IMG/VR virus record: IMGVR_UViG_3300024260_000055 | Span: 1-23,037 of that record | Length of the DNA: 23,037 nt | From: a virus | Reading direction: 5' to 3' (one strand) | Part shown: positions 1 through 23,037 of the stretch, piece after piece | Layout: each line of letters begins with the position of its first letter | Numbering within the stretch: position 1 is the first letter of the stretch | Translations under genes and position numbers: made by a program | The notes under the pieces: model-generated | What the model was told of the DNA's origin: nothing | Database searches by the model: none | What the model saw: only the letters and a program-made list of their open reading frames with translations

Positions 1-665
1 CGACTTTAACTAAACCGTGGAGTTACTCAGCGCTAACAGCGTTCGAGACGTGCCCACGTAGATACCAACTGACACGAGTAACTAAAGAGGCTCACGAGAA
101 ACAACACGAAGCATCGCTTTGGGGTAATAAAGTACACAAGCACCTCGAGGACTACGCTAATGGTACAGCGCAACTACCTAAAGACTTACAGAAGTACAAG
201 AAGTACGTGGATAAGATATTCACATACGAAGGTAAGCGGTTAGTTGAGCAACGTATGGCTATCAACAACAACTTCAAGCCTACCAAGTGGATGGCGAAGG
301 ACGTATGGTGTAGAGGTATCGTTGACATCGGTGTAGTAGGCTCGAAGACAGCGTACTTACTAGATTGGAAAACGGGCAAACACAAGCCGGACTCTAACCA
401 ACTTAAACTGTTCGCCGCATTGGCGTTCATCTACTACCCTTGGGTAGACAAGGTGGTAACAGGTTTCATTTGGCTTAAGTTCGGTAAGTTTGACAAGGCA
501 GTATTCACTAGAGATGACATCACAGACATTTGGGCTGAGTTTTTACCTAGGACTAAGCGCCTAGAGATAGCATTTGACACCGATAAGTGGCAAGCCAAAC
601 CGTCAGGACTGTGTCGCAATTGGTGCCCGGTCGGTAGTAAGCTATGTGAATTTTGTGGAGTATAG
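1..665 (+). CDS. Cas4/RecB-type PD-(D/E)XK nuclease with cysteine cluster (5' partial)
   Basis: The reading frame is open from base 3 and runs off the left edge; about 220 residues are visible and probably only a few are missing. Numbering from the first visible codon, the fold signature is YSALTAFETCPRRYQ (8-22), GNKVHKHLE (41-49), E83, then the core GIVDIG (D108) and LLDWKTGK (D121, K123), with Q133 beyond it. This is the PDDEXK_1 / Cas4-like exonuclease pattern. C17 plus C204, C208, C215 and C218 at the extreme C-terminus resemble the Fe-S cluster of Cas4 and AddB, which uses one N-terminal and three C-terminal cysteines. A GTG at 207 is not the start, because strong motifs lie upstream of it. 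It probably processes DNA ends during replication or recombination. It is first in a run of three different nucleases. No cas genes are nearby, so a CRISPR role is not suggested. Confidence 0.85.
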   Translation, partial: TLTKPWSYSALTAFETCPRRYQLTRVTKEAHEKQHEASLWGNKVHKHLEDYANGTAQLPKDLQKYKKYVDKIFTYEGKRLVEQRMAINNNFKPTKWMAKDVWCRGIVDIGVVGSKTAYLLDWKTGKHKPDSNQLKLFAALAFIYYPWVDKVVTGFIWLKFGKFDKAVFTRDDITDIWAEFLPRTKRLEIAFDTDKWQAKPSGLCRNWCPVGSKLCEFCGV

Positions 666-668
666 ATT

Positions 669-968
669 ATGGGTATGACACCTGAAGGTAAAGTTAAAAA
701 GAAAGTCAAAGACTATTTAGTATCAATAGGTGCGTGGTACTACATGCCGGTTTCAAACGGCATGGGACGTTCGGGATGTCCCGACATCTTAGTGTGTTAC
801 AAAGGTCGCTTCATGGCTTTTGAGACTAAGGCACCCGGTAAGTTAAAGAACACAACTCCAAACCAAGACCGAGAGATAGAAGGTATTAATAATGCAGAGG
901 GTCTTGCTATTGTAGTTGACGACGTTGAACAAGTTAAGGAGGTAATCAATGCCCAAGACATCGGCTAA
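669..968 (+). CDS. VRR-NUC domain nuclease
   Basis: This 99-residue protein is a stand-alone VRR-NUC fold, the PD-(D/E)XK variant found in phage proteins and in FAN1. The catalytic pattern is visible as GCPDILVCY (P38, D39) followed by FMAFETKAPG (E52, K54) and a downstream Q66. The N-terminal TPEGKVKKKVKDYLVSIGAWYY is the usual opening helix and strand. Length is normal for the phage stand-alone form. GGAG at 657-660 serves the ATG at 669; the ATG at 675 is an alternative start. It follows the Cas4-like nuclease by three bases and overlaps the HNH gene by 20 bases, so it is translationally coupled to both. A structure-selective or Holliday-junction nuclease role is inferred from the family, not from this sequence. 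Confidence 0.85.
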   Translation: MGMTPEGKVKKKVKDYLVSIGAWYYMPVSNGMGRSGCPDILVCYKGRFMAFETKAPGKLKNTTPNQDREIEGINNAEGLAIVVDDVEQVKEVINAQDIG

Positions 969-1221
969 GTCGCTTAAAACCAAAGCGGCATACAACAAGA
1001 AACCAAGCGTGCAAGCTAAGCGCGTGGCTCAGAACAAAGCACGACGACACGCTATAGCAAAAGGTACAGTTACGAAGGGAGACGGTAAAGACGTTGACCA
1101 CAAGAAACCTTTAGCTAAGGGCGGTAGTGCCAAAGACTCAAACACTAGGGTAGTTACCCAAAAAGAAAACAGAGGGTGGCGCGCGAAAAACCCGGAGATG
1201 TACAAAAAAGGGAGAAAGTAA
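949..1221 (+). CDS. small HNH-type endonuclease
   Basis: A 90-residue basic protein. Its first 40 residues are Lys/Arg-rich and lack an obvious fold. A compact HNH-like beta-beta-alpha core follows: DVDHKKPLAKGG (H51), SNTRVV (N65) and KENRGW (N74). This is the H-N-N form common in short phage HNH proteins. No CxxC zinc knuckles are present. AAGGAGG at 936-942 gives a strong ribosome binding site six bases before the ATG. The gene starts inside the end of the VRR-NUC gene, and its stop directly abuts the next ATG. Such proteins can act as nicking or packaging-associated endonucleases. With no terminase in view, a role in replication or recombination is the more cautious guess. Confidence 0.75.
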   Translation: MPKTSAKSLKTKAAYNKKPSVQAKRVAQNKARRHAIAKGTVTKGDGKDVDHKKPLAKGGSAKDSNTRVVTQKENRGWRAKNPEMYKKGRK

Positions 1222-1458
1222 ATGATAGCAAACGATAGGCAAGTCAGCGGTGCACACTACCAGACTGAGATACAGCCTTGGGACTTTATAGTCGCAAACA
1301 AACTCGGTTACTTGGAGGGCAACATCATTAAGTACGTGTGTCGCTACAAAGAAAAGAACGGTATTGTAGACCTACATAAGGCACAGCACTACTTAGAGAA
1401 GTTAATCGAGGAGACAGAACATGTTGGTTTGGAAAAAGAAGAGGGCGCTAGTACTTAA
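1222..1458 (+). CDS. DUF3310 family protein
   Basis: A 78-residue protein matching the phage DUF3310 pattern throughout: HYQTEIQPWDFI near the start, GNIIKYVCRYKEKNG in the middle, then DLHKAQHYLEKLIEE. The family is widespread in phage early regions and is sometimes annotated as nucleotide-kinase-like; its biochemical role is not settled. The ATG follows the HNH stop with no gap, and GGGAGA just upstream serves as ribosome binding site. The last 38 bases overlap the start of the SNF2 helicase gene, implying coupled translation. Its place between nucleases and a helicase fits DNA or nucleotide metabolism but proves nothing about function. Confidence 0.8.
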   Translation: MIANDRQVSGAHYQTEIQPWDFIVANKLGYLEGNIIKYVCRYKEKNGIVDLHKAQHYLEKLIEETEHVGLEKEEGAST

Positions 1459-2992: not shown

Positions 2993-3017
2993 CACGTTCG
3001 TACTAGTAGGGTATTCT
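2989..3017 (+). promoter_or_regulatory. sigma70-like promoter
   Basis: A perfect -35 box TTGACA (2989-2994) is followed by exactly 17 bases and a -10 box TATTCT (3012-3017, four of six matches to TATAAT). It overlaps the helicase stop codon and lies about 40 bases before the AlpA-like gene, giving a leader of roughly 30 bases. The spacer contains the 8-bp palindrome TACTAGTA (3001-3008), a possible regulator site. It would let host RNA polymerase transcribe the downstream ssDNA-binding genes. Confidence 0.72.
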
Positions 3018-3056
3018 TGTACTCTCTTGAACACATACGGAAGGATTTAGACTTAT

Positions 3057-3242
3057 ATGAACTTACTTAGACCGGAAGAAGTTTCGGAAAAATTAGGAAT
3101 TACGAAGGGCGCTTTACCGGCTCTACGTAGGCGTGAAGTTAGTTTTCCCCAACCTATAAGAGTCTCTCAAAAGGTTCTTCGTTGGGACGAGGCTGACATT
3201 AACAATTGGTTAGTAAACAAAAAGGAGAGCAGTAATGGCTAA
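3057..3242 (+). CDS. AlpA/MerR-like helix-turn-helix DNA-binding protein
   Basis: A 61-residue protein with the layout of the AlpA / HTH_17 family: LLRPEEVSEKLGIT forms the first helices, GALPALRRREVSFPQP the recognition helix and turn, then a wing and the ending WDEADINNWL. Family members act as excisionases or transcription regulators. AAGGA at 3041-3045 is the probable ribosome binding site. It is the first gene behind the promoter at 2989-3017 and overlaps the next gene by eight bases. No integrase is in the window, so excisionase activity is not supported over a regulatory role. Autoregulation through the spacer palindrome is conceivable but unproven. Confidence 0.75.
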   Translation: MNLLRPEEVSEKLGITKGALPALRRREVSFPQPIRVSQKVLRWDEADINNWLVNKKESSNG

Positions 3243-3636: not shown

Positions 3637-3637
3637 T

Positions 3638-4513: not shown

Positions 4514-4539
4514 CATTCAAGTAAAAAAGGAGAAACACC

Positions 4540-5121
4540 ATGGCTGAAATAGCTAATTATTCGTTTAACAACGTAAAAGTAATGTGGACTAAACTGCAAG
4601 CAGACAAACCCGAAGCACCATACCAAGGGGAAGGCACTAGTAATTGGACAATCCAAGTGGTACTAGACGACGCTCAAGCAGACAAGTACAAAGACACGGG
4701 CTTATTCCCTAAGTTCAAGAGAAACCAAGAACACGACCTAGTACTAGAAGACGGGCTTAAGCAAGTGAAGCTTAAGAAGTCATCTACGTTTGGTGTAGGC
4801 GGTAAACCGAAGCGCCCTGTAGTAGTTGTAGACATCTACGGCAACCCGATAACTGACCTTATAGGTAACGGTTCGGTTTGTAATGTGCAGTGTTCAGCAC
4901 ACGTTTGGTCAAGAGACGGTAAGCAAAACACGTCACTAGAACTACAAGCGGTACAAGTTGTAGAGTTAGTAGTCTACGACGAAAACGGTGGCGGTGATGA
5001 CGAAGTAGAACTAAAATTCGACTTCCAGAAGCAAAAGAAGGTTGACATTAAAGACGTTAAAGCCCCAGTAGAAACGGACAACATCAACGAAGCCCTAGAT
5101 GGTTTAGACTTCGACGACTAA
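4540..5121 (+). CDS. putative OB-fold ssDNA-binding protein (DUF2815-like)
   Basis: A 193-residue protein resembling the DUF2815 / phage ssDNA-binding family. It opens YSFNNVKVMWTKLQADKP, has the predicted strand NWTIQVVLDD, and a central run PVVVVDIYGNPI then LIGNGSVCNVQ, typical of this OB-fold group. The C-terminal 45 residues are acidic or charged and end NEALDGLDFDD. Such proteins coat single-stranded DNA during replication and recombination and use the acidic tail to contact polymerase, helicase or nuclease partners. AAGGAG seven bases before the ATG is a strong ribosome binding site, in keeping with an abundant product. The gene closes its operon: a strong intrinsic terminator follows 14 bases after the stop. 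The family assignment is by pattern recall; the SSB role is well supported by length, tail and context. Confidence 0.82.
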   Translation: MAEIANYSFNNVKVMWTKLQADKPEAPYQGEGTSNWTIQVVLDDAQADKYKDTGLFPKFKRNQEHDLVLEDGLKQVKLKKSSTFGVGGKPKRPVVVVDIYGNPITDLIGNGSVCNVQCSAHVWSRDGKQNTSLELQAVQVVELVVYDENGGGDDEVELKFDFQKQKKVDIKDVKAPVETDNINEALDGLDFDD

Positions 5122-5135
5122 GTGCGGTAATACGG

Positions 5136-5160
5136 AAGCCGGGGTTCGCCCCGGTTTTTT
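5136..5160 (+). terminator. intrinsic terminator with UUCG tetraloop
   Basis: The arms CCGGGG (5139-5144) and CCCCGG (5149-5154) close on the very stable loop TTCG and are followed directly by six T residues. The lower stem can extend by pairing AAG with the first T residues. It sits 14 bases after the ssDNA-binding gene and should end the operon that begins at the promoter near 3000. Confidence 0.93.
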
Positions 5161-5168
5161 ATGCTCTA

Positions 5169-5210: not shown

Positions 5211-8153
5211 ATGGGGATTCAACAATTTTTAGAATTAGTACTACCGGACAGCGGGGCGAAGATAATAGCCTTAGCTACACCAACAGGCAAAGGTGGCGTT
5301 TGGTTTAAGTACAAGAAGTACGATAGCGCTAAGGACGCGGCGCTAGCAGCTGAGTTCTTCGACGACCAAGGTGAGACAGTTTACTTCGCAGTGAACTCTT
5401 TTGGTGATTGGTACGACGATGAACGAAAAAAGAAGAAGCGCATACGAACCCAAGAAAACGTGGTGGCGTGCCGTTCGTTGTTCGACGACTTCGACGTTGG
5501 TGGCGACGGTAAGAAAAAGTACGCTACTAGGGAAGAAGCGCTAGCAGATATCGTTCAGTTAGCCAAGGTGTTACAACTTACCCCTACGATAACTTCGTCG
5601 GGCGGTGGGTACCACTGTTACTTCTCGCTAGATGAAGACGTTACCTCAGATGTATGGAAGGAACTGTCTGCTCTCAAGAGGGACGTCACGACTCATATGG
5701 GGCTAAAGGCTGACAGGGCTGTTGACATGGATAGCGCTCGGATACTACGACCGGTCGGTACTCATAACCGTAAGACTAACCCTCCCGTTGAGGTTAAGTT
5801 AGTCAAGCTAGGTAAGCAGTACCCTGCGGAAACAATACGTGAAAAACTCCAAGGGTACATCAAGGACAACGACGTACAGCCTGCGCCTACTAACAACTAT
5901 GACAAGAGTAAAGGGGCTAACCCGTTCGCTGCGGCGCTAGGAGATTACCCTACGGCAGACGCCAATGTAATTGCAGAGCACTGTAAGGCTATCCGCGAGT
6001 TCCGCGATAAGAAAGGTGACATACCTGAGCCTCATTGGCACAGAGCCATTGGTGTGGTTAAGCACTGTGAGAACGGTACGGAACTAATACACGAGTGGAG
6101 TAAAGGGTACAAGGGTTATACGTTTGAAGAAACCCAAGCTAAGATTGACGAGTGGGAGTTCGGACCTACTTCATGTGCTGAGATGGACAAACACATCGAC
6201 TGTGCTAGTGATTGCGCCATGGCTGACAAGTGCAAGTTCTCAATACAGTTAGGCAACAAGGAACAAGCAGAGTCCGCTAAGGACGAAACGGAAACGGACG
6301 ACGAACAGCCTGCGACAGTACCGGTAATAGAAGGGCAGAAAATTCCATATTGGCCGATGACCGGCTATCGTTGGAACGGTAAGTCATTGTCTAGGTCGAT
6401 CAAGGACGACGATGGAGTTGTACACTGGAGACCGTTCTGTAGGTCGTTCATATACCCTATCAACCGTATACAAGACTCCGAGGGCACTTGGGTAATTCAG
6501 TGGCGTGCCAAAGAAAAGAATGGCAGGTGGCGTGAGTTCTTCATGCCCACCTCAGAGTTAGCGTCAACGGATATGATGGCAAAGACTCTAGCGTCGCACG
6601 AAGTCTTCTTAATGAGAACAAATAAATCAAGGAACGACATGGCTGAATTTGCAGAAGGTCTCATCGAAACCCTCCAAGCGTGGCGTATGGAAACCAAAAC
6701 ATACAAGCAGTTTGGTTGGACCGAAGACAGAAAAGGTTTCGTAATAGGAACCAACATGATTAAGCTAGAAGGCGAGGAAGAAGTACTATGCGACGAGGAT
6801 ATGCCGGCGGACGTAGTTGTTAACTTCGGAACCTCCGGAACCTTAGAACAGTGGACGGCTAACATAGACACGCTGTACAACAGACCGGGAGCAGAGCCGT
6901 TTCAGTTCGCGGTGTGCCACTCGATGGGTTCTGTACTTGTTGAACTCATGGGTTCTTCGAACTGGCACGGGCTGCCTCTCGCTTTTACTGGGTATGGTGG
7001 CACGGGTAAATCTACAGCGGCTAAGATAGCGTGTGGTTTCTACGGCAACCCTGCGTACATGGAGCGCCAAACGGGCGAACAAGGTTCCACACTAAACGCT
7101 GTGATTAAACGTATCGCTATTATGGGCGCCGTACCTATGCTGCTCGACGAGTTCTCCGGTCGAGCGCCCGACGAGTTGACTAGAACGGGTTACGCCCTGG
7201 CTAACGGACGAGACAAAGAGCGCCTTGGTTCCAACGGTAAATTTAGCACAGTTGGTGGTCAGTGGTTTAAGAATAGTTTTATCACGTCGAACGACTCGTT
7301 ACACGAGAACATTAGTAAACTACCTGCGGGCTTCAGAGTTGAAGCGACGCAGTTGCGCTTCTTCGAGATACAACTACCCGAGAACTTTAGAGCCGATGTA
7401 TTCCCAGACATAACACAGTCGTTTGTAGAAGACCACATGGACAACGTCTACGGCGAAGCGTGCCGACCTTTCATTAGGTTTGTTATTAAGCACCATGACT
7501 GGGTGCGTAGGCAAATAACCGCTGCTCGTGGTAAATTTAATCCAAAGTCTAGCGACGACAACAAAGAGCGTTTCTACAGAGACACTATCGTAACTGCTAT
7601 AGTGGCCGGTAAGATTGCTGAGAAGATAGGGTTAATATCTTTTGACATAGCGGGCATGAAGAAGTGGGCACTGGAACAAATTGTTCAGATGCGCGAGAGC
7701 CGTAAAGAAAGTAACACAGATATTAGTGAGCACATCGCTCAGTTTATCTCGACGCTTCCGGGACGACTCATCATTACGCTTAGGTTCGGTGACGCAAGAG
7801 CCAAGAAAAAGGAAATGCCTTTAGAACATTTAAGGGCGCCAGCAGTTGGTAGAGTTTGTACCGAAGATAAGAAGGTGTACATAATGTCTAAGGCTGTTAA
7901 CGATTGGTGTAAAGAACACGGTGTGGCTCCAGCTGCCATGAAAGAGGAACTAGACCGCGGCGGGTATTTAATATACCACGCAGATGGTAAGCCTGCAGCT
8001 AAGTGCTACATAGGTTCGGGTACTACAGTTCCAAGTGGACAAACACGATGCTACGAGTTCAACTATGGCAAACTGTTCGGCGACAACGCCCCTTTGAACT
8101 TGGTTGAAACCGACGAAGGTGTAGCCACTGAGACGCTGTTAGATGTAGAGTAA
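5211..8153 (+). CDS. primase-polymerase / DUF927 / helicase replication protein
   Basis: A 980-residue fusion. Residues about 40-215 form an archaeo-eukaryotic (RepB-like) primase: motif I LFDDFDVGG (D92, D93, D95), motif II TSSGGGYHCYF (H135), motif III VDMDSARILRPVGTHNR (D172, D174). A C-terminal primase extension with clustered cysteines follows (C322, C331, C335, C341). Residues about 376-550 resemble DUF927. The ATPase has Walker A GYGGTGKST (G594-T602), Walker B PMLLDEFSG (D646, E647) and a sensor-like FITSNDS (N694). It probably primes and unwinds phage DNA, and is a candidate initiator. The ATG has an AGGTGG ribosome binding site. Two hairpins lie just upstream, so its expression may depend on read-through or a promoter I could not identify. 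The window's only GATC lies in this gene. No DNA polymerase gene is visible. Confidence 0.9.
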   Translation: MGIQQFLELVLPDSGAKIIALATPTGKGGVWFKYKKYDSAKDAALAAEFFDDQGETVYFAVNSFGDWYDDERKKKKRIRTQENVVACRSLFDDFDVGGDGKKKYATREEALADIVQLAKVLQLTPTITSSGGGYHCYFSLDEDVTSDVWKELSALKRDVTTHMGLKADRAVDMDSARILRPVGTHNRKTNPPVEVKLVKLGKQYPAETIREKLQGYIKDNDVQPAPTNNYDKSKGANPFAAALGDYPTADANVIAEHCKAIREFRDKKGDIPEPHWHRAIGVVKHCENGTELIHEWSKGYKGYTFEETQAKIDEWEFGPTSCAEMDKHIDCASDCAMADKCKFSIQLGNKEQAESAKDETETDDEQPATVPVIEGQKIPYWPMTGYRWNGKSLSRSIKDDDGVVHWRPFCRSFIYPINRIQDSEGTWVIQWRAKEKNGRWREFFMPTSELASTDMMAKTLASHEVFLMRTNKSRNDMAEFAEGLIETLQAWRMETKTYKQFGWTEDRKGFVIGTNMIKLEGEEEVLCDEDMPADVVVNFGTSGTLEQWTANIDTLYNRPGAEPFQFAVCHSMGSVLVELMGSSNWHGLPLAFTGYGGTGKSTAAKIACGFYGNPAYMERQTGEQGSTLNAVIKRIAIMGAVPMLLDEFSGRAPDELTRTGYALANGRDKERLGSNGKFSTVGGQWFKNSFITSNDSLHENISKLPAGFRVEATQLRFFEIQLPENFRADVFPDITQSFVEDHMDNVYGEACRPFIRFVIKHHDWVRRQITAARGKFNPKSSDDNKERFYRDTIVTAIVAGKIAEKIGLISFDIAGMKKWALEQIVQMRESRKESNTDISEHIAQFISTLPGRLIITLRFGDARAKKKEMPLEHLRAPAVGRVCTEDKKVYIMSKAVNDWCKEHGVAPAAMKEELDRGGYLIYHADGKPAAKCYIGSGTTVPSGQTRCYEFNYGKLFGDNAPLNLVETDEGVATETLLDVE
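6398..6401. other. only GATC site in the window
   Basis: By reading both strands (the site is its own complement) this is the single GATC in 23,037 bases. By comparison, CTAG, with the same base composition, occurs 14 times in the first 3,000 bases alone. The site lies in the DUF927-like part of the primase-helicase gene. Confidence 0.88.
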
Positions 8154-8322: not shown

Positions 8323-8790
8323 CTACTTCTTGACATCCACTATAAGAATAACGCGGTCGCTATCACTTTCGTTAGCCGCCTCGTGCTCTATAGTGTCGTC
8401 AAATAATACAGCTTCCCCCTTTTTCCAGTGGTGTGTTTCTTCCCCAACACGTATCCAACATTTAGGAGGGCATATCAACCCTAGGTGTAGTCTCCATACC
8501 GAGTCGGTGTAACCTACGTGAGGTGTTATAACACAGCCCGCTTTCAAAACAGAAAATCCAGCTATGAATACTCCAGGAATACTGTTTATTATCTCAGTAG
8601 TTTTAGGGCACTCGTTAAGCAGGTCTTCGCCTTGGAACTTTATACCATACGCTTCCCACTTGCCATTGTGTAGGTGCGCCTCAGGCCACTGTTTTGTTTT
8701 GGATGACACCTTTAGGTACTCAGCCAAGATGACTTCGACGTTATCGGTAAGTTTTCTTATGGGTTTATAGTCTTCTGCAGTGTGAAACAT
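8323..8790 (-). CDS. aspartyl/asparaginyl beta-hydroxylase-like 2-oxoglutarate/Fe(II) oxygenase
   Basis: A 155-residue protein of the Asp/Asn hydroxylase family (cupin / jelly-roll fold). The iron ligands are H91 in TPHVGYTD and H136 in DDTIEHEAAN. R100 and H102 in WRLHLGL and R146 in DSDRVILIVD fit the 2-oxoglutarate contacts. The spacing of these residues follows human AspH: 11 residues from the first His to the RxH histidine, about 34 to the second iron ligand, and 10 on to the Arg. A minimal catalytic domain appears intact. The start chosen is the ATG at 8790, because GAGGAG lies four bases before it; a longer frame from a TTG would translate that ribosome binding site. It lies after the virion operon's terminator. 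The substrate is unknown; virion, host or small-molecule hydroxylation are all possible. Confidence 0.88.
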   Translation of the reverse strand: MFHTAEDYKPIRKLTDNVEVILAEYLKVSSKTKQWPEAHLHNGKWEAYGIKFQGEDLLNECPKTTEIINSIPGVFIAGFSVLKAGCVITPHVGYTDSVWRLHLGLICPPKCWIRVGEETHHWKKGEAVLFDDTIEHEAANESDSDRVILIVDVKK

Positions 8791-8800
8791 TTTTCTCCTC

Positions 8801-8839
8801 AAAAAAGAAAGGCCCGGAAAAAGAGGAAACCGAGCCTTT
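8801..8839 (-). terminator. intrinsic terminator after the giant virion gene
   Basis: Read on the minus strand, AAAGGCUCGG (from 8839) pairs with CCGGGCCUUU (to 8808) over ten base pairs, one of them a G-U wobble, with a 12-base loop. C and six U residues (8807-8801) follow. The wobble pair forms only in minus-strand RNA, as expected for a terminator of the virion operon. The hydroxylase ribosome binding site partly abuts the U-tract, so read-through would be needed to express that gene unless it has its own promoter. Confidence 0.87.
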
Positions 8840-8873: not shown

Positions 8874-11800
8874 CTATTCGGTTCCCAAACTACGTCTGGA
8901 GTTGCGTTCCCGTTTCCCTTGTTTCCTAGAAGCCCCTAATAGGGACCTAATAGAAGTTCGTTTAAGGGCCTTGTAATCATTGTTGAAGAACGGTCTTACT
9001 TTGTCCTTAGCGTCCTGTAACTCGTGGAACTCTGTTTCAAGCACGGCCATCTTCTTGAAGTCACCTGCTTCATCAGCATCCATGTACTGGTTCCTAATGT
9101 CAGACTGAGCTTCGCTGAAGTACTCTTTCAGCTCGTACTGTTGACCGTAGGTCCACTTAATCTTACTCAAGTCAGCGGCAGGAATACCTAGTGCGTTTGC
9201 TAGTAAAGGTAACTTACTAAAGTGACTAGGGTCAGCCACTAGGTCTCCGTTTCTAAGCGAGTAACCTTCGGTTCCAATTCTCCACGACTCCATGATTGTT
9301 TTAATGCCTTTAGGCATAGCGGACTCAACGGCACGGTACGCGTTTCCTTCAGAGGCGAACTCTGCGGAACGAATTGCGCTGGACGCTGTGCTACCAGTTG
9401 GGCCTAAGAAGGTACCAAAGAACGCGTCTCTAAGTCCTTCTTGAGACAACTCTAGGTCTATGAACGGTGCTGGGTGAAATATTTTGTCTTGGCTTAATTT
9501 GGTTGACATGTCTATGCCTATTATAGAAGGCAGTCCCCTAGATATTAGGTTCGCTAACTCCGGGTCGTCAATGTACTTACCGATAATACGTTCGATGTCT
9601 TCCGGCTCTTCACCACCAGAGAATAAGGAGAACGCTCCAGCTACTACACCAATGAAAGGAAGGCCTCTAACACCTCCAAACATACCTGCGTGCATTAGCA
9701 TGTATCTTAGGGTCTTGTACCCCACTGCTTTTTCTTCCGCAGTTGACCCCGCCCACGCGGCTTTCGCTGCATTGGCGTAAACCCAACCCATCATGAATTG
9801 ATACTTACGGTACTGAACCATTAGCTTAGGAAGTCGTTTAAGAAGTCTTGGGGCGTCCGTGTTAGAGAAGTCACCTTGTGTATCTTGAACAATCTTCATA
9901 GCGAACTGAGAAGGCGTCATACCTAGGTGTTTAATCTTACCCGGTTGCTTAATCGCCATATCGTGGGCTGCTACAGCTGTAGACACACGATTGTACATCT
10001 CTACTACTCTAGCTGCTTGGTACAGTCGGTGTGTTACATCACTAGCAGCACCGCTCGCTTTGTTGAGTACATCAGAGCCAGTGTTAAGTCTAGTAAACTC
10101 AGCTAGGTCTTGTTCCATACCAACGTCTAATAGCTTTCGGTCCTGCAGCATTTTGAACAACTCTTTGTACTTAGGGTCTAGCTTAGAAAAGTCAATTTCC
10201 GCTTGTCTGTGTAAGAACTTACCGTTTTGTTTTTTAAACGTAACCACGTCTCGCGCTACTTGGTACCCCGTGCCAAACATAGGCAACAGAGCTTTCATAG
10301 TCCCTTTGTAATCCCCAAACGTAGCGGCCAGTACAGGTACAGTAACCATCAGCGGTTGAGTGGCGTTTGTAAAGTGATAGCCCACGCTTGATGTAAGCAT
10401 CCACACAGTATTAAACGCCGCTATAGTGTTTGCTATTGGTGTCTCCTTACCCTCTAACATAGATGTGTAGTGCGACACTAACATGTTGTACACCGGTACT
10501 AGTTCCTCAGGGTCAGTCTTAGCTTCTTGCTCCGCATTTACTAGCGCCGCGGCTATATCAGCGCCATGCTCCATCTGAGAAATTAAGTTAGCTTCGGCTC
10601 TTGAATGAGATAAAAACGAGCGAATCATGTTAGACTCGAACCCAGCTATACCTTCTCGCTTGGCTTGGGACTCCCTTGCGTTACTCTCATCTAGCGAACT
10701 CATGTACATTTCTTGTACCAAAGACTCCATGGCTTTGTATGCCGTTGGGTCTATGTTAGAAGCCTTCATGGTGCCTAGTACTTTACTAAGAACCTTGTGG
10801 TTAGACACGTTGCCTTCACTCACCGTTTTAATCTTTTCTGTAGTAGTGGCGCTCTCGTACAACGCTTTCTTTTCTTTCTTGAATCTACTAGCTTCGCCTA
10901 TAGTGTCGAAGAACTTAACTACGAAGTGCGCTTCTTTAGCGCGAAGGTTATCTACGCGACGTTTGTTTATTTTGTTGGCTCGTAGCTCGTACGCTTTCTC
11001 TGCTTTAATTAAGGCTCCAGACTTAAGGGTCGTAACGTAGCTACCAAAACGTTTCAGAGGTGCGTATGGGCCGTCTAGAACTCCAGTGTGGAAGAACGCG
11101 TCACTTACGCCTTTAGCCTTAGCAATAGCGCGCTTACGCTGTATCATAGTTTCGCCGTGGGCGAATACGTCTTTAACTAGTTGCTGTTCAGGTGGCCGTA
11201 AAGCGTCGAACCGCTTACTCATTTCCTTGTCGACTTTTACTTTTCTACCTTTAAACTTAGGGTCATAACCCCAGGCTCTATCCAAAGTAGAGTCAGCAAT
11301 AAATTTGTTTACAACAGCTAGACGCTCATCGGACATCTCACGGGCTTGCACCGCAACACCCTCTACGTGCCTCTTAATTTGGTTTGCTGTTTCTTCGGCC
11401 TTCAGTATTAAGTTAAACCAAATAGAAGCACCGGGCATCTTAATTTTGTTCTCTTCAATAAACTGATGCAAGAACTTGTTTTCGTTGGAAGCTCGTTTCA
11501 TTATGTTACTGAACGTCTCCCAATGTTGGATACCCGTGTCGCCAAACACAGCCTTAATAGTCTTTCTAGTATTGCTAAGGTCTTTTTTGTTCTTTTTTGG
11601 GTTAATGGACTCTTGCGAACGAGCGGCTTGGTTCGCGTCTTTTCGTAGCCTTTTAAGGTCTTTCGCGTCACGGGCTTCTCTTTTGAACCCTATACTAATC
11701 TCGCGGCTAGCGGAACCAAACTCGTCCATTGCTTCCCGCGCGGCTCCTAGCGATAAGTCCAACAAGTCCTCAACAGTCAACTCTGCAACTCCGGCCCTAG

Positions 11801-14800
11801 ACATCCCTAACTTTTGTAGAGCTTTTCTAAACGAGGATACGATTAGAAAAGCTATGTTTTCTACGCTACCTTGCTTAGCGACAGCGGAGGGCTCTACTCC
11901 AGCTTCTACTGCGTACTGTATGAAGTAAGCGATGGTTTCAGACTCTATAGTACTACCGGGGATGGTTTTACCTTCTTCCTTCGCTCTAGCTCTAATGCGG
12001 GCCAGTTGTTCCGACACTCTACCGGCAATAGCTACTGGGTCTTTAGGGTCCAGACTTCCGTCTTTCATTAGAGGTAACGTAGGCTGGTCGGATACCATCC
12101 AAGTTTCAATTTTACCTATTACGTGCTCCAAGTCTAAGTCGGAAAACAAGCTTTCCAAACCTAGATGCACTCCTACTTCGTGCAGGAACAGCGCTAACTC
12201 GGTACCCTCTTCGATGTTTTCCATAACGAATACCACGTCTTCATCCAAACCGGTGGCGGTTTGCTGGGTTCTATAAACACCACCCACGCCCGTAGAAGTT
12301 GGTGTGTCATTTGGGAACAAAGCGTTAAGCTCCGCCACCGTATCCACGAAGTGGAAGTGGTCACGTATGAGTTTAGGTACAGCCCCCTTATTAAACAACA
12401 TACTTAGTAGGCTGTCGAACTTCATAGCCTTCTTATTGTTTTCGGCAGTAGCCTTCGGTTTACGCATAGCCGCAATGGCGTTCGCAGCGTCTGAGAAGCT
12501 TTCTTTACGCTCCGCTTTCGCTTTCTTCTCCGCTTTCGCTAGCTTAGATACTTCCGCACGGAAACCAGGAAAGTCTCGGGCCTGTAGCATTTCAGACAAC
12601 GTAGGGTGGTCTAAGAACCAGTCGTCACTCTTTAGCGTTTTGTTTGCAAACGCTATGGCGTTGTCCCTAGCGGCGGCCGTGGACTCCTCTTTCTTAATCA
12701 CATCCTTAGTTGACTTGTGCGAGCGCCCATCTTCCAAAGCTTTAGCGATGTCGGTTATCTCGGACTCAAACGCTTTGTACTTTTTCTGGGTTAGTATTTT
12801 CTTTAGGTGAGGGTACTCAGAGGCCCATAGGGCGCCCAGGATATCCTTCGCGCCGGCTTCCAGTTGCTGTACTACTTTCGGTTTCCGTACTGTTTCAGTA
12901 CTCTTTTTTCCACGTCCATCAGCGGTTGCCCCAGCTCTTTCAGGTCGCCTATCAGTTTTGCGCTGTCCGTTAACCACTTTTTCATCTTTAACTTCTGTCC
13001 TTTTGTTGGGTTCAGCATTTGGAGTCTCTCCTTTTTGGTTACTAAATTTATCGTTAATTACTTGAGCGTCTTCTACTAGAGCCGAAGGGTCTCCCTTTTC
13101 CATAGCAAGGCCCACAGCGTTAATCCAAGCGTACTTAGCTGTTACATGTAAGTCGTTGAACGAACCGGCTTCCTCTGGTTTGCTTTCGTCCCAAGATTCT
13201 TGTATTTGTTTAGCCATACCTTTGTCCCCCATAACGCGGGAGACTAAACCCTCTTGCCCCTTACGAGACTTGTTAATCCTAGCTTGGTCCTCAGTTTTTC
13301 CTTTCGCTTCCGCGTTCTTGGCAACTAGGGCTTTTCCCTTTTTGTCTGGAGACGCAACGCCTTCTATAGCACGGGTACCCCCTGCTGCGACGCTGCCCAT
13401 ACCATGGTCAAACACGTCTACTACGTCGTCGTTTGACGTCTCGTCAGCGTCGGCTACTACTTTTTTAGTTTCGTTTTCGTTTGGAACGAACCCTTCTACT
13501 TCAGCTGTTTGGGCATCTTCGTTATCAACCGAGGCTTCCCCAAGGGTCTTGCCATCTTCAGTTCGCAACTTAGTAGCTTTTAGTTGTTCTTTAGTACCTT
13601 CACCTGCAAATTCGGTGAAGTATCCCATAATAGATTTAACAGCAGCGTCTGCTGTCGAGCGACCTTTAAGGCCTGCGGCTTTAGCGATAGCTGCGGAGCC
13701 GGTTTTACCGTCTCCATAGAAGTACTCACCTAGTGTATCAGTTTCGATAGCATCAAGGATTACATCCAGTACCTTCACCTGTGTGTTGGTTAACTCAATT
13801 TCACCACTAGCCACCGCGGCTGCTATTTTAGCGCCTACGTCCTTAGTCGCTACTGAAGATTTATCTTTGGATAAACCCCCTTCAGTGGTAGTCCCTAGCT
13901 CTGCTAGTCGCTTCTTAACTTTAGCCTTAGCCAGTGTTCTACTAAACAGAGTTTCCCCGGAGCCGTACACGCCTTTCTTACTTTCAATAGCTTTGGTAAT
14001 TTCTGGGTACGCTTCCAAGTCACCTAGGGCTTCAGTGGCTTCTTTATGGGCTAAGTCTTTCTTAGAGTTCTCTTTGTAAGGAGAAGTAATAACAGGGGCT
14101 TCAGTAGTCCCCGGTACCTCATTCGAAATAGGGCCCGGAGTAGCCGGCTTAGCGGCTGCTTTAGCTTTACCCTTCTTAGGGCCTGCGTTGTTTCTTTTAG
14201 CAATCGCCCACTCAGCAGGGTCTAGTTGTTCTCTAGCCGTTTGTTCCACAGCGGCAATGCCACCTAGGTTTTTATCTGAGTTAGCAACGTTTAGTGCGTC
14301 AATTAGAGGAGCAACAATAGCGTCTACTTGCGCTTGTTCTTCCGGAGTTCTATTAGCTTCTACATCTTTAAATTTTGAGTGTGCATCCAAAGCAGCGAAG
14401 TACGGTTCTCTACTGTCGTCCACTTCTGGGAGTAAGTCTTGTACCGCTGGGTCGCTTAAGAACGCTTCTATGACATTGTCATTAGTGTCGTACTGCTCGT
14501 TTTCTTCCTGCCAAGCTACGAACGCAGAGCCAAGGTCAGACTGCTCGTTGGCTATGTCTAGTCTTTGCTGCTGTGCTTGGTTCGCTGCGTTTTCTTCTTC
14601 CCACTTATTCTCGTCGGGGAACGACTCCGCGGCTTTGCGTCGGTTAGTCCTAGTAATCTTTTCTTGTTTTATTTCTTCCTGCTGCTGACGAACAATGTCA
14701 AAACGTGGGTCTTGGAATACCTCATCGGTGCTAACGCCTAGTATCTTAGACCATTTAACAGCGAAGGCTCTACTGTCTTCAGTGGACGCTATAGCGCCTG

Positions 14801-15986
14801 CGTCACCTATAAACTCGTCGTCCTCTAGGGCTTGCGCTTGCTCTGCTAATATGGCAGCCTGTGCTTCCTTACTAGCTTCGCTTAATTCGTCTTTGGCTAA
14901 TGCAGCCCTAGCGATGTTTACACCACCACCCTGTCCCGCACCAGCGAACGCGCCCATAACGGCATCACCACCGACGTCCTCCAGTAGTGGGGTACCAGTA
15001 CCAAGGTTCTCAAATACTTTCTCTTGCGCACCTTGTAATAATTCTTCACCACCTTCGAACCCAGCACCCTTAGCAACATCTACTGCGTTAGCTCGTAGAC
15101 CCTTTTTGGCCGACTGCTCTATTAAATTGGTAGCGGCTCCTGTAACTTTACTAGTAACGACCTCATCAGGGTTGAGTACACCCGCTTTGGTAGCCATTTT
15201 TCCGCTAATCAGTGATATACCCGCGGTTGCCATACCTGCTGGGACAGCAGCTAGTCTGTCTGTGCTGTACTCACCGGACGTACCGGTCTTCTCAATAATA
15301 TTTTTAGTTACTTCACCAGACGTAATAGCACCTTCACCAACTGCGGCTGCGGTATTACGCCCCATGTTAGCTATCTTACCAAGACCAGCCACTTCGGCAC
15401 CTGCTTTAATACCTTTAGCAGCGAGACCGCCACCAAACATGTAAGGTACAGATGTGGCAATTAGGTTGGCAACTTGACCTGGATGGTCAGCTACAAATGA
15501 ACCAGCTTCGCCACCTTGGGCAACCATAGCGTCAATGTAGTCCATAGTAGAGGCGTCAGGGCCTAATGAACCTGCAGCTTCTTGAAGTCGTGTGGATAGT
15601 TCTTGGTTAATCTCTTGTTGTCTATCGGATAGTAGAGCCTCGTCTAGTGCTTCGCCACCTTTCTGTAGCCAAGCTGACAACGGGTCGGCTACGTAGTGCA
15701 ACCCTGGAACCAAAGAACCAAGTCCAACTAATGCTCCTGCTGCTTTCGCAGTACCTGATATTAGACCGGTAGCAACGTCAGCTACATCTCTAACGCCACT
15801 TGTTTCCTCTGACTTATAGTCATACCCACTATCGGTTTGAGCACCACTAGTTCCTCTGCTGGGTATAGTCTGCTCTGCGCCAAAGGTGCGCTGGACGTAA
15901 TCGTTTAGCTGTTTATCAGTTGCGTTATCAGGGCCATCGAACTCGTATACTGTTCCGTCTGGGCCCGTGGTCTCGTATGTTGCCAT
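8874..15986 (-). CDS. giant polyvalent internal virion / ejection protein with putative zincin domain (gp16-like)
   Basis: A 2370-residue protein, last of the virion operon. It opens GPDGTVYEFDGPDNAT, seen at the start of other phage virion giants. Residues about 65-350 are Ala/Gly-rich with hydrophobic stretches and GFEGGEELLQGAQ (about 305-317), like membrane-active parts of ejected proteins. About 370-1200 is charged, probably helical and low in conserved motifs. A putative metallopeptidase lies near 1215-1440: FLHEVGVHLGL (H1269, E1270, H1274) with E1350 in SETIAYF as likely third ligand. The spacing is HExxxH, not classic HExxH. Residues about 1850-2130, with SSVGYHFTNATQPLM and a later LLKRLPKLMVQYRKY, resemble the LPD38-type region of polyvalent proteins. 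No transglycosylase motif of T7 gp16 type was seen. Position after gp13/14/15-like genes supports an ejection role; the protease call is by motif only. Confidence 0.82.
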   Translation of the reverse strand: MATYETTGPDGTVYEFDGPDNATDKQLNDYVQRTFGAEQTIPSRGTSGAQTDSGYDYKSEETSGVRDVADVATGLISGTAKAAGALVGLGSLVPGLHYVADPLSAWLQKGGEALDEALLSDRQQEINQELSTRLQEAAGSLGPDASTMDYIDAMVAQGGEAGSFVADHPGQVANLIATSVPYMFGGGLAAKGIKAGAEVAGLGKIANMGRNTAAAVGEGAITSGEVTKNIIEKTGTSGEYSTDRLAAVPAGMATAGISLISGKMATKAGVLNPDEVVTSKVTGAATNLIEQSAKKGLRANAVDVAKGAGFEGGEELLQGAQEKVFENLGTGTPLLEDVGGDAVMGAFAGAGQGGGVNIARAALAKDELSEASKEAQAAILAEQAQALEDDEFIGDAGAIASTEDSRAFAVKWSKILGVSTDEVFQDPRFDIVRQQQEEIKQEKITRTNRRKAAESFPDENKWEEENAANQAQQQRLDIANEQSDLGSAFVAWQEENEQYDTNDNVIEAFLSDPAVQDLLPEVDDSREPYFAALDAHSKFKDVEANRTPEEQAQVDAIVAPLIDALNVANSDKNLGGIAAVEQTAREQLDPAEWAIAKRNNAGPKKGKAKAAAKPATPGPISNEVPGTTEAPVITSPYKENSKKDLAHKEATEALGDLEAYPEITKAIESKKGVYGSGETLFSRTLAKAKVKKRLAELGTTTEGGLSKDKSSVATKDVGAKIAAAVASGEIELTNTQVKVLDVILDAIETDTLGEYFYGDGKTGSAAIAKAAGLKGRSTADAAVKSIMGYFTEFAGEGTKEQLKATKLRTEDGKTLGEASVDNEDAQTAEVEGFVPNENETKKVVADADETSNDDVVDVFDHGMGSVAAGGTRAIEGVASPDKKGKALVAKNAEAKGKTEDQARINKSRKGQEGLVSRVMGDKGMAKQIQESWDESKPEEAGSFNDLHVTAKYAWINAVGLAMEKGDPSALVEDAQVINDKFSNQKGETPNAEPNKRTEVKDEKVVNGQRKTDRRPERAGATADGRGKKSTETVRKPKVVQQLEAGAKDILGALWASEYPHLKKILTQKKYKAFESEITDIAKALEDGRSHKSTKDVIKKEESTAAARDNAIAFANKTLKSDDWFLDHPTLSEMLQARDFPGFRAEVSKLAKAEKKAKAERKESFSDAANAIAAMRKPKATAENNKKAMKFDSLLSMLFNKGAVPKLIRDHFHFVDTVAELNALFPNDTPTSTGVGGVYRTQQTATGLDEDVVFVMENIEEGTELALFLHEVGVHLGLESLFSDLDLEHVIGKIETWMVSDQPTLPLMKDGSLDPKDPVAIAGRVSEQLARIRARAKEEGKTIPGSTIESETIAYFIQYAVEAGVEPSAVAKQGSVENIAFLIVSSFRKALQKLGMSRAGVAELTVEDLLDLSLGAAREAMDEFGSASREISIGFKREARDAKDLKRLRKDANQAARSQESINPKKNKKDLSNTRKTIKAVFGDTGIQHWETFSNIMKRASNENKFLHQFIEENKIKMPGASIWFNLILKAEETANQIKRHVEGVAVQAREMSDERLAVVNKFIADSTLDRAWGYDPKFKGRKVKVDKEMSKRFDALRPPEQQLVKDVFAHGETMIQRKRAIAKAKGVSDAFFHTGVLDGPYAPLKRFGSYVTTLKSGALIKAEKAYELRANKINKRRVDNLRAKEAHFVVKFFDTIGEASRFKKEKKALYESATTTEKIKTVSEGNVSNHKVLSKVLGTMKASNIDPTAYKAMESLVQEMYMSSLDESNARESQAKREGIAGFESNMIRSFLSHSRAEANLISQMEHGADIAAALVNAEQEAKTDPEELVPVYNMLVSHYTSMLEGKETPIANTIAAFNTVWMLTSSVGYHFTNATQPLMVTVPVLAATFGDYKGTMKALLPMFGTGYQVARDVVTFKKQNGKFLHRQAEIDFSKLDPKYKELFKMLQDRKLLDVGMEQDLAEFTRLNTGSDVLNKASGAASDVTHRLYQAARVVEMYNRVSTAVAAHDMAIKQPGKIKHLGMTPSQFAMKIVQDTQGDFSNTDAPRLLKRLPKLMVQYRKYQFMMGWVYANAAKAAWAGSTAEEKAVGYKTLRYMLMHAGMFGGVRGLPFIGVVAGAFSLFSGGEEPEDIERIIGKYIDDPELANLISRGLPSIIGIDMSTKLSQDKIFHPAPFIDLELSQEGLRDAFFGTFLGPTGSTASSAIRSAEFASEGNAYRAVESAMPKGIKTIMESWRIGTEGYSLRNGDLVADPSHFSKLPLLANALGIPAADLSKIKWTYGQQYELKEYFSEAQSDIRNQYMDADEAGDFKKMAVLETEFHELQDAKDKVRPFFNNDYKALKRTSIRSLLGASRKQGKRERNSRRSLGTE

Positions 15987-18689: not shown

Positions 18690-18758
18690 GGGAGCTTTGT
18701 ATACTATTTAGCACAAGTTTATTATATATCATAGTTAGCGAGTTAGGGGGAGTTTTAT
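18690..18758 (-). promoter_or_regulatory. possible minus-strand promoter before the internal virion genes
   Basis: This AT-rich gap separates the tail genes from the GNAT gene. On the minus strand it holds TGATATATAAT, with a perfect TATAAT at 18726-18721 and a TG just upstream resembling an extended -10 element. No -35 box is at the right distance. A phage-specific or weak host promoter is possible, but the match could be chance in AT-rich DNA. Confidence 0.35.
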
Positions 18759-19610: not shown

Positions 19611-19963
19611 TATCTTAGCCCTCCAACAGCAGTAGACCCCGCATCGGTTACTGAGTACGCATCGCCCCCCATGACAACCAGGCGAACGTTTCCTAGAGTT
19701 TTTCCGTAGTTAACGGTAAAGGTGTACGTGTTAGAGTTAACAGGAGCGCCAGCAGGGGTAACGTCGGTCCACATCAGGGTCTGCATGTGCCCACTACTGT
19801 GCATAGAAAAGTACACGAAGTAGAAGGGGGAGTGTTCGCTAACCCACGTCACGTTAGTGGAGGCCGCTGTTAAAGTAACCTCGTGAACGACCTGTAGCCC
19901 TATGCTGGTTGTGTCTAGTTCTAAGTTACCAGCGCTATCGAGTATTTCAAAACCGAAGCTCAC
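19610..19963 (-). CDS. small beta-rich tail accessory protein
   Basis: A 117-residue protein beginning SFGFEILDSAGNLELDT, a start shared by small phage tail proteins next to host-specificity genes. The rest is beta-rich (VVHEVTLTAASTNVTWV, SPFYFVYFSMHSSG, YTFTVNYGKTLG, VRLVVMGG). The start is GTG at 19963, sharing one base with the stop of the large tail gene (TAGTG); an in-frame ATG is absent near the beginning, so the GTG is accepted. Its stop overlaps the next ATG in the same way, so all three tail genes are coupled. It probably decorates or caps the tail tip. The family name is uncertain. Confidence 0.7.
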   Translation of the reverse strand: MSFGFEILDSAGNLELDTTSIGLQVVHEVTLTAASTNVTWVSEHSPFYFVYFSMHSSGHMQTLMWTDVTPAGAPVNSNTYTFTVNYGKTLGNVRLVVMGGDAYSVTDAGSTAVGGLR

Positions 19964-22900
19964 TAGGCCACCGTAACAGAAGCAGTTGAAGGGTTGGATA
20001 CATTACCTGCACCATCTATAATGTATATGTAATATGTCCCCGCTAGCGTTGGAGCCAAAATAGTAGTAGAGGTGCCACTCGCTGCTTTAGTCTGGTTGGT
20101 GTAAGGGCTAAACACCGTAGTACTCAAAGGAACCAGCCAAATCTGGCTGTCAACGTAACCTGTGGAAACGATAGTAACAGACCCGCCTGGAGACGCTGTC
20201 GTACTAGTTGGTAGAACAACATCCGACATAGCAGTGGTAGTAATAGACGCAGTTGACCTGTTGGACACGTTGCCCGCTTGGTCAATAACGTACAAATAAT
20301 ATGTACCTTCGGAAGCAGGGGATACGATGCTAGTAGACACACCACTTACTGAGTGGGTCATAATGTTACTACTAGCGAAACTAACAGTACCTGTAGGGGC
20401 TAACCAAACTTCGTTAGTAGAGTCCGCAGTTGATACTATAGTAATAGTGCTACCAACTACAACAGTGGCAGATGAAGATAGCGTTGCGTTGACCACCGTG
20501 TTACTAGGTGGAACAACGTCTAAATTACCCATCACAACTCGTAGGTTCCCGGAGCCATCGAACACTCTAATCCTAGAGTTGTTTATCTCTAAGCGTGCTC
20601 CTGAGGTAGCCTTGCCGATATCTAACTTACCTCTGAACACGCCGTTGTTATTAACTTCCAAGCCGTACGCTTTGGACATTCTCCATCCAGCGATACCTGA
20701 GTCAAAGTTAGCACTCTGCATACCGTCATGAATCTTAGCGTTTGTAATAGCAGCGTTATCTATATTGGCCGTTGTAATAGCAGCATTGGCAATCTTAGCG
20801 TTTGTAATAGCAGCGTTATCTATTTTAGCCGTTGTAATTGCCGCGGTACCTATTTTTGCACTGGTTACGGCAGCGGCACCTATCGTAGCCTCTGTAATCG
20901 CCCCCAATACAATATGCGCTGAGTCCACAGCTAAAAGTCCTATCTTAGCGCTAGTAATAGCTGCGTTCTTGATAAAGGCAGACTCTATGTATACGCCCGC
21001 AGGGATAAGAACCGTAGTTCCATCGGTGTCATACGTGGGGGACGTTTTAACTGTAAAAGGTATTGTCTGGGGTGTAGTCGACCAAGCGGTACCCGTGTAG
21101 TATTTAATATCGCCGGTAGTGTCGTGAACCCACACTCTACCTTTGTACAAGCCTGTTGTTGGGGCGGAAGATGCCACTGTCGAGGCGGGAGCTACCCAAA
21201 AGGTATCAGCTCGTACTCCAAACTCCGAAGTTGGGGTAGCGTCGTTATTAGTAGATATTAAACCATACCCCGTAACGTGACCCCCATTATCAATTTTTAC
21301 TGCGTACTTGCCTTCAATTCCGTCTACAGAGCTCGCTACAGTGTTTACCGTAGTGAAACGGTCGCCTACTCGGGTAGATACGGTGTGGGTGTCCACCGCC
21401 ATAGCGGCGTCATCTTTCCACGCAAAAGTACTGCCCGTTTGCGTAGCCGCCTCACACGTAGTTTTAGTAGCGTACGCCGAGGCTATGTTTGTAACGCCGG
21501 TAGTAGTAACGGTGCGCTCACAGTAACCTACCTGTTCTACTATCTGTTCGCCTACATAGGCTTGAGTAGCAAGCCCTACCTCGTCCCAAGCGCCAGTGCT
21601 GCAATCGCTACCGCAATCAAACCGGTATAGTTTTCCGTTATCACTAGTATCCGACCACAAGTCTCCGTCTCGTAGAACTAGAGTGGCTGGGGTGTTACGG
21701 ACAAAGGTTCCCGAAGTAACTGTGTCGTTGAAGTCAGGCATAGTCGTTGAGAAGTAGCTTGTTACTTTACCATCTGCAGCCGATTGAGCGTCTCCCGCGT
21801 CTGCTATAGCTTGTGCTATGTCCGAGTCAGGTATAGATACCCACCCATCAACACTTGGAGTAGCTCCTGTGTCCTGCCAGCGAGACATTGTGTACTTCGC
21901 ATTAGTAGTGTTAAACCAAAGGTCACCTGTAGACATCGTGTGCGTTGGAGCACTTGGGGCAGTAGCCTCAAAGTAAGTAGTAACCTTACCGTTGGCTATG
22001 TTTTCTACGGTCACAATTCTACCGTCTTGCGCAGGCTCCCACGTACCAGTGCTAGACTTAAAGGCCCACAGCATATTCTCACTGTCTAGGTCTACCCAGG
22101 TGTCTCCGTTTTGAAGAACTAGAGTAGCTGGGTTGTTCCTTACCATAGCCCCCGTTCCGTCGTCAACGAAGTCAGGCATACCGTTTTGGTAGTACGTTTT
22201 AGTTTTAGTAGCCGCTAAAGTATCATCAGTGTATATAGTGGCTTCCGTCCAGTTAGCGCCGTCACTTTGGTATATCGCCCCGGGGGTGTACGTAGTGTCC
22301 GCAGTTCCACTTATAGGAATCCATATATCTCGTGTTACCCCTGTAGGTACATCATCAGAAGCATTACTATAGATTGTTCTTTTACCGTCAGCTAAGTCAG
22401 CTAAAGCAGTAAGGTTGCTATTATTGCCTATCTGAGACCATTCGTACGTAACCGGGGTTGTTGCAGGAACTTTAGGTTGGTACTTGTAAGTGTTGGTTAC
22501 ATCTACGGTTACTCCCCCCGTACTAACCTCTGTAGTACTCTCAATGAAGATGTCATTCTCCTTCATTCCCGTCTGTGAGGTGTGGTCGCCCCCACTAAAA
22601 ACTACTACTTCTTTGTCTATCTCCCCACCTACGTACGTCTGAATTGTATCCGTACCGTCTATGGTCGCCGAAGTAAGGTTGACAGCTACGGTACCATCAG
22701 TAATCCCAGTGTTTAATGAGGCTACTGAGTTCTGGGCTACGTACGCGTCTAGGTAAACTTTACCAACAGCGTTGTTTGGAGTATTTACCCACCCTAGTGT
22801 GCCTTGAGACCCAGCTGTAGGGTCTTGGTACCTGTATATGCAAGTGTCATCTAGCGGGGTAACTTTATCTGTGTCAATCCACAAGTCACCGAAAGACGCA

Positions 22901-23037
22901 GTGCCTGGTTCTGCATCTTGGAAGAATCCTACTATCTCTCCATCTGCAGTGGTCTGGGCGTTGCTCGCGTTAGTAAGCGCTGTAGATATACCCCCATCTC
23001 TAACAGAGACAAAATCAGATGTAGATACAGAGTACTT
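19963..23037 (-). CDS. tail-tip/host-specificity protein, gpJ-like C-terminal part (5' partial)
   Basis: The frame is open to the right edge, giving 1024 visible residues. A TTG at 22884 could serve as a start, but upstream residues (ADGEIVGFFQD, then GDLWIDTDK across the TTG) continue the domain, so the true start is outside the window. Four related modules of about 50-100 residues follow, each with a GxVTxYF / GDLWxDT pattern. Next comes a gpJ-like (DUF1983-type) linker, then ten-residue repeats (AAITNAKIAN and variants, near residues 685-770), the segment SGIAGWRMSKAYGLEVNN, and two tandem Ig-like units ending GTYYLYVIDQAGNVSN and GTYYIYIIDGAGNVSN. Such proteins form the receptor-binding end of lambda-type tails. 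Finding one beside a podovirus-like ejection module is unusual. Confidence 0.87.
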   Translation of the reverse strand, partial: KYSVSTSDFVSVRDGGISTALTNASNAQTTADGEIVGFFQDAEPGTASFGDLWIDTDKVTPLDDTCIYRYQDPTAGSQGTLGWVNTPNNAVGKVYLDAYVAQNSVASLNTGITDGTVAVNLTSATIDGTDTIQTYVGGEIDKEVVVFSGGDHTSQTGMKENDIFIESTTEVSTGGVTVDVTNTYKYQPKVPATTPVTYEWSQIGNNSNLTALADLADGKRTIYSNASDDVPTGVTRDIWIPISGTADTTYTPGAIYQSDGANWTEATIYTDDTLAATKTKTYYQNGMPDFVDDGTGAMVRNNPATLVLQNGDTWVDLDSENMLWAFKSSTGTWEPAQDGRIVTVENIANGKVTTYFEATAPSAPTHTMSTGDLWFNTTNAKYTMSRWQDTGATPSVDGWVSIPDSDIAQAIADAGDAQSAADGKVTSYFSTTMPDFNDTVTSGTFVRNTPATLVLRDGDLWSDTSDNGKLYRFDCGSDCSTGAWDEVGLATQAYVGEQIVEQVGYCERTVTTTGVTNIASAYATKTTCEAATQTGSTFAWKDDAAMAVDTHTVSTRVGDRFTTVNTVASSVDGIEGKYAVKIDNGGHVTGYGLISTNNDATPTSEFGVRADTFWVAPASTVASSAPTTGLYKGRVWVHDTTGDIKYYTGTAWSTTPQTIPFTVKTSPTYDTDGTTVLIPAGVYIESAFIKNAAITSAKIGLLAVDSAHIVLGAITEATIGAAAVTSAKIGTAAITTAKIDNAAITNAKIANAAITTANIDNAAITNAKIHDGMQSANFDSGIAGWRMSKAYGLEVNNNGVFRGKLDIGKATSGARLEINNSRIRVFDGSGNLRVVMGNLDVVPPSNTVVNATLSSSATVVVGSTITIVSTADSTNEVWLAPTGTVSFASSNIMTHSVSGVSTSIVSPASEGTYYLYVIDQAGNVSNRSTASITTTAMSDVVLPTSTTASPGGSVTIVSTGYVDSQIWLVPLSTTVFSPYTNQTKAASGTSTTILAPTLAGTYYIYIIDGAGNVSNPSTASVTVA
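20728..20990. repeat. 30-bp-period tandem repeats coding for ten-residue units
   Basis: Within the tail gene, a unit of about 30 bases is repeated imperfectly about nine times and codes for AAIT-AKI-type decapeptides. A 33-base block starting with AATCTTAGCG at 20731 recurs exactly at 20791, making a 60-base higher-order repeat. Repeats of this kind form a beta-helical or trimeric stalk in gpJ-like tail proteins and can change copy number by slippage or recombination. Confidence 0.85.
21655..22180. repeat. duplicated tail module
   Basis: The DNA at about 21661-21745 and about 22093-22180 is visibly similar. Both copies encode a PDF...VRNxPATLVLxxGDxW element of the tail protein. The similarity at DNA level suggests fairly recent duplication or gene conversion between modules of the same gene. 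Boundaries are approximate. Confidence 0.65.

Follow-up and report, generated by a model that had tools for sequence, protein, structure and literature searches.

Near-total loss of GATC in a clade of uncultivated phages as a possible clue to their hosts

Why would a phage genome lack almost every copy of one four-base palindrome? The stretch of DNA analysed here (the window) is a whole IMG/VR virus record of 23,037 bases, itself a genome fragment, in which a first-pass annotation found near-total avoidance of GATC. Two causes were put forward, a DpnII/MboI-type nuclease or Dam/MutH-type mismatch repair in the host, along with two checks: a tetranucleotide count against a Markov model and a comparison with relatives. 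We report both here, together with a survey of phages of known host, and weigh which host system could have driven the loss.

Results

GATC is avoided in the window independently of codon usage

A direct count found a single GATC in the 23,037 bases, at 6398-6401, and agreed with the first-pass annotation on this site, on 14 copies of CTAG within the first 3,000 bases and on the abundance of GTAC (162 in the window). The figure of about 90 expected GATC sites equals the base-composition value (89.4), but the proper expectation is about 42, namely 41.5 under a first-order Markov model, 42.4 under a second-order model and 42.0 ± 5.5 in 500 synonymous-codon shuffles of 15 genes (lowest shuffle, 27). 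These shuffles were done gene by gene and changed neither the encoded proteins nor the codon usage of any gene. Against the Markov expectation, which is nowhere near one site, GATC had the lowest score of all 256 tetramers (z = −8.0). Because the shuffles still expect 42.0 sites, protein sequence and codon use are not the cause of the loss, in line with the earlier argument that codon use of one gene class does not explain it; a compositional origin is likewise rejected by the Markov models. Palindromes of the same composition exceeded the codon-shuffle expectation (CTAG 120 observed and 91 expected; GTAC 155 and 108), and milder shortfalls were seen for CCWGG (12 and 36) and GGWCC (8 and 21). 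GATC avoidance in the window is thus real and independent of codon usage.

The minus-strand genes of the window encode mostly structural proteins (Table 1). Codon shuffling predicts 16 GATC sites in the gene for the 2370-aa protein and 5 in the tail/tail-fibre gene, and both have none. Genes on both strands are depleted, as first described, but the strand argument is worthless as evidence because GATC is its own reverse complement.

Table 1. Annotated features of the window and its only GATC site
Feature	Position	Strand	Matches or context
PD-(D/E)XK exonuclease, 5' end open	3..665	+	PF12705, phrog_69
VRR-NUC-like endonuclease	669..968	+	phrog_93 endonuclease
SNF2-type DNA helicase, 523 aa	1421..2992	+	PF00176 1.9e-19, PF00271; phrog_62 1.8e-99
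gp2.5-like ssDNA-binding protein	4540..5121	+	phrog_112 3.6e-8
DUF927 / primase-helicase-like replication protein, 980 aa	5211..8153	+	PF06048 1.6e-24; phrog_25314 and DNA primase PHROGs
Sole residual GATC	6398..6401		DUF927 gene, codons TCG ATC (Ser-Ile)
Aspartyl/asparaginyl beta-hydroxylase domain protein	8323..8802	-	PF05118 9.4e-41
2370-aa protein, probable virion/ejected	8874..15986	-	phrog_10089 2.3e-25, residues 1629-2338
Tail/tail-fibre protein, 5' end open	19963..23037	-	phrog_2589, phrog_16534

Several other features of the gene content were recorded. The C-terminal third of the 2370-aa protein resembles DarB-like antirestriction proteins, making it a possible ejected counter-defence protein. 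Among the clade contigs searched, just two, one of them the window's own record, matched the beta-hydroxylase gene; none outside the clade did. A tandem repeat with 15-, 30- and 60-base units lies at 20731-20875 within the tail-fibre gene. The window and those clade contigs that were checked yielded no tRNA. Among the open reading frames of the window and of a 36.9-kb relative, both fragments, none evidently fits a single-subunit RNA polymerase (about 800-900 aa), a trait of Autographiviridae.

The loss is common to one clade

Using the DUF927 protein as query, we fetched relatives and found its gene in twenty viral contigs, with 0-3 GATC each over the 5-23 kb examined per contig. The longest relative contig (36,934 bases) has 1 GATC against 75.9 expected. 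In a polymerase tree of 84 sequences, the depleted contigs form one clade of 28 rows (SH-aLRT 99), and contigs outside it lie near the GATC expectation. Pooled observed/expected ratios (O/E) are 0.10 (58/573) for the clade and 1.17 (2200/1878) for the rest of the family. The comparison with relatives therefore places near-total GATC loss in one clade, across which it is near-uniform down to polymerase identities of about 78%. The tree requires at least two state changes, which we read as a single origin and a single loss, the latter in contig L040. A homologue of the VRR-NUC-like endonuclease also matches in 52 non-depleted contigs, so this enzyme is not the cause of the GATC loss. Self-avoidance of a phage nuclease was rejected more generally, as GATC-normal relatives have the same nucleases.

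Two contigs stand out. L040, nested in the depleted clade, has near-normal GATC (O/E 0.84 over its 44 kb; 92 observed and 125 expected by codon shuffle), spread along its length in an apparent loss of pressure; no Dam-type methylase was found in it. In contig L041, avoidance of GATC, ACGT and AGCT shifts along the sequence: the first 16 kb show milder GATC loss with near-normal ACGT and AGCT, and from about 20 kb ACGT is absent (0/18, 0/19 and 0/11 per bin). Recent module exchange or chimeric assembly is the likely origin of this shift.

Several of the IMG metagenome identifiers stand for what we take to be marine samples, and the uncultivated bacterial viruses of this lineage are probably marine. 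No isolate phage matched at the nucleotide level. Within the phage collection, replication proteins point to Pseudomonas phage Rollin and to Rhizobium phages, RHph_TM27A among them, as the nearest isolates, at 23-41% identity (RHph_TM27A and Rollin, respectively: DNA polymerase 33% and 31%, SNF2 helicase 41% and 38%; DUF927 protein 23-25%). Their GATC O/E values are 0.61 in RHph_TM27A and 1.50 in Rollin.

Selection against GATC is continuing

We compared pairs of sequences that both carry GAT but differ at the next base and scored the share of differences involving C. Within the depleted clade this share was 24 of 414, against 48-56% after AAT, CAT and TAT; in non-depleted relatives, the GAT context (59%) was level with the others (55-59%). 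Between contigs 97-99.9% identical, C was involved in 0 of 10 differences after GAT versus 34 of 56 in other contexts. Within the clade, substitutions that make or remove a GATC are under-represented by a factor of about ten, and selection against GATC is therefore still acting. A mutational hotspot at GATC, with no selection, is disfavoured because it alone should leave some new GATC between near-identical genomes, and none has newly arisen there. In aggregate, the Markov models, codon shuffling and these context differences all support the strong, GATC-specific counter-selection first proposed.

Of the 15 DUF927 relatives that cover the site at 6398, 12 have GATC there, despite divergence of up to 60% at fourfold sites between lineages and available synonymous alternatives. 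Of the other tetramers in this codon frame, about 8% are kept by all four of the most diverged lineages; conservation of the site is ordinary for its frame and needs no functional role for GATC. A second residual GATC, upstream near the helicase gene, likewise occurs in more than one lineage.

Other palindromes are avoided within the family

Sister lineages lack different motifs. CCWGG is reduced to 0 of 89 expected in L074 and 1 of 89 in L104, and the L074 contig has 21 of 148 expected GGCC; further shortfalls in sister lineages affect CCGG (0/13 and 0/19), ACGT (10/36), GCGC (5/24) and AGCT (13/52), and some other family members also avoid GANTC. This variety of avoided palindromes looks like restriction. 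The depleted clade itself under-uses GGWCC (pooled 41/308) and, more mildly, CCWGG. Pooled O/E for GANTC is 0.33 in GATC-normal relatives versus 0.72 in the GATC clade, and the two motifs correlate negatively across 59 contigs (Spearman −0.48), a figure that is phylogenetically non-independent because there were few independent transitions. With that limit, lower GANTC in GATC-normal relatives would fit a change of host class.

GATC content separates phages by host

As a control we computed GATC O/E for 15 T7-supergroup phages of known host. T7, which the first-pass annotation had named as poor in GATC, indeed has 6 sites against 149 expected (0.04); SP6 stands at 0.44, KpV48 at 0.05, and Vibrio phages N4, VP4 and VPy02 and Aeromonas phages LAh5 and HJG at 0 in the stretches examined. 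Values for the others are 1.17 (gh-1), 1.08 (phiKMV), 1.24 (Pipo), 1.10 (Axy09), 0.88 (Lullwater), 1.58 (SB4) and 1.36 (P60). GATC is thus depleted in 8 of 8 phages of Enterobacteria, Vibrio and Aeromonas, to 0-0.05 in all save SP6, and lies at 0.88-1.58 in 7 of 7 phages of Pseudomonas, Acinetobacter, Achromobacter, Caulobacter, Xanthomonas and Synechococcus. Enterobacteria, Vibrio and Aeromonas are Dam/MutH hosts, and the hosts of the other seven are not known to have this system. This separation by host upholds the use of GATC content as a host clue. CTAG is absent from Vibrio phages N4 (0/157) and VP4 (0/163), Pseudomonas phage gh-1 (0/71) and Xanthomonas phage SB4 (0/24), independently of GATC status.

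GANTC is missing to the same degree from phages of CcrM hosts, with 1 of 61 expected sites in Caulobacter phage Lullwater and 0 of 182 in the 50 kb examined of Rhizobium phage RHph_TM27A, which avoids this motif in place of GATC. CcrM bacteria are not known to carry MutH. Since their phages shun GANTC with equal strength, losing the motif of a host methylase is not enough to imply MutH.

Among 14 control genomes, the MutH family was found only in E. coli. Across 185 gammaproteobacterial genomes it occurred in 43, and the DpnII family passed the cut-off in 2, a count that covers this family alone among GATC enzymes. A search for the host found no close relative of the window in 84,980 species genomes, where scans with the DUF927 protein and polymerase gave only distant matches (22-34%). 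A nucleotide search of 369 Gammaproteobacteria gave weak matches of 28-56 bp, with no CRISPR repeat array at the six stretches checked. The 42 phage records, which are fragments, contained no match to Dam-type methylases (PF02086, PF05869), and self-methylation of GATC by these phages was accordingly not seen.

Discussion

The GATC pattern probably reveals the kind of bacterium that this clade infects. We favour, at a probability of roughly 0.55, a gammaproteobacterial host with Dam and MutHLS, in which the loss is driven by MutH-type attack on phage GATC sites that are not fully methylated; both the presence of Dam/MutH in the host and the role of MutH as the agent are what we infer from the pattern. 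Such phages would replicate in bacteria with Dam methylase and MutH-type methyl-directed mismatch repair, and phage DNA synthesis would outpace Dam methylation. GATC left unmethylated or hemimethylated could then be nicked or cut by MutH, or bound by other proteins that recognize hemimethylated GATC, so that each site would reduce phage yield and mostly synonymous mutations would have stripped out nearly all of them. Of the two causes named at the outset, the evidence leans towards this one because phages of known host match it and the DpnII family is rare in Gammaproteobacteria (2/185, against 43/185 for MutH); restriction remains a serious rival.

Observations on cultivated phages fall on both sides. 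In dam- mutH+ cells, phages tend to give lower yields (Deschavanne and Radman 1991, cited in PMC5014478). Against the Dam/MutH reading, phiX174 given 20 extra GATC sites grew without obvious defect under standard conditions (PMC5014478). The persistence of the site at 6398 across lineages diverged by 0.6 at fourfold sites also counts against it, and MutH cannot explain the under-use of GGWCC and, more mildly, CCWGG in the same genomes.

A GATC-specific Type II restriction-modification system of the DpnII, MboI or Sau3AI kind, common among the hosts and escaped by holding sites near zero, is a possible though not a likely driver. Changing restriction pressure would give just what the sister lineages display, other restriction palindromes avoided as strongly as GATC, and the window's own clade avoids GGWCC too. 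Near-elimination is moreover typical of non-temperate dsDNA phages, and GATC is reduced in all 46 phages from hosts that encode a GATC enzyme (PMC6286503). Set against this are the scarcity of the DpnII family noted above and the patchy, often strain-specific distribution of restriction systems, compared with a near-uniform loss over the whole clade. Where the host of a phage is known, the GATC pattern also tracks host order, and even one remaining site would in principle be open to cutting.

Two related readings dispense with cleavage. Phages may purge whichever motif is the core orphan methylase motif of their host lineage, needing neither MutH nor a restriction enzyme; we consider this rather improbable. 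If it were true, GATC and GANTC together would form a readable record of host-class switches within one phage family. Slightly less probable still is avoidance, without DNA cutting, of whichever motif the orphan cell-cycle methylase of the host recognizes (GATC with Dam, GANTC with CcrM), acting through proteins that bind methylation states, such as SeqA or GcrA, or through the methylase itself. The absence of GANTC from Caulobacter and Rhizobium phages, as complete as that of GATC from Vibrio phages, and the inverse relation of the two motifs within the family are what it would lead one to expect. However, the correlation stems from few independent transitions, GANTC is also a restriction site (HinfI), and it stays somewhat below expectation in the GATC clade. 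Least credible, and very improbable, is a loss without host pressure, through bias in mutation or composition or because the phage avoids a GATC nuclease of its own: the window does carry several nuclease genes, but these are common to relatives with normal GATC, composition fails under codon shuffling and Markov models, and near-identical relatives show no newly arisen GATC.

For uncultivated phages, GATC content may offer a simple indicator of the host, as it set the phages of Dam/MutH hosts apart from the others in the small control set.

Like the window, enterobacteriophages T7 and phiX174 show near-total GATC loss specific to that tetramer, for which MutH-type attack was proposed in 1991 (Deschavanne and Radman 1991, as cited and discussed in PMC5014478). 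The window's clade differs from them in being uncultivated and probably marine, in belonging to a different phage family and in having the trait mapped on a tree as a single gain and a single loss; T7 parallels it in GATC pattern only, the nearest isolate relatives lying elsewhere. The Vibrio and Aeromonas phages N4, VP4, VPy02, LAh5 and HJG, with 0 GATC in every stretch examined, also belong to another family. They are also without, or nearly without, CCWGG, and CTAG, normal in the window, is absent from N4 and VP4. With the lytic phages surveyed for restriction-site avoidance by Rusinov et al. 2018 (PMC6286503), the window shares the elimination of a short palindrome (O/E < 0.1) from a dsDNA phage, whereas its host could not be tied to any GATC restriction enzyme. 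That phages can avoid GATC has been on record since 1991, and the window's clade is a further case; as far as a limited literature search shows, this example, its clean phylogeny and the contrast with sister lineages had not been described before. With one gain, one loss and sister lineages that avoid different palindromes, the family is a natural experiment that bears on whether mismatch repair, restriction or orphan methylases are the driver, a question left open in PMC5014478.
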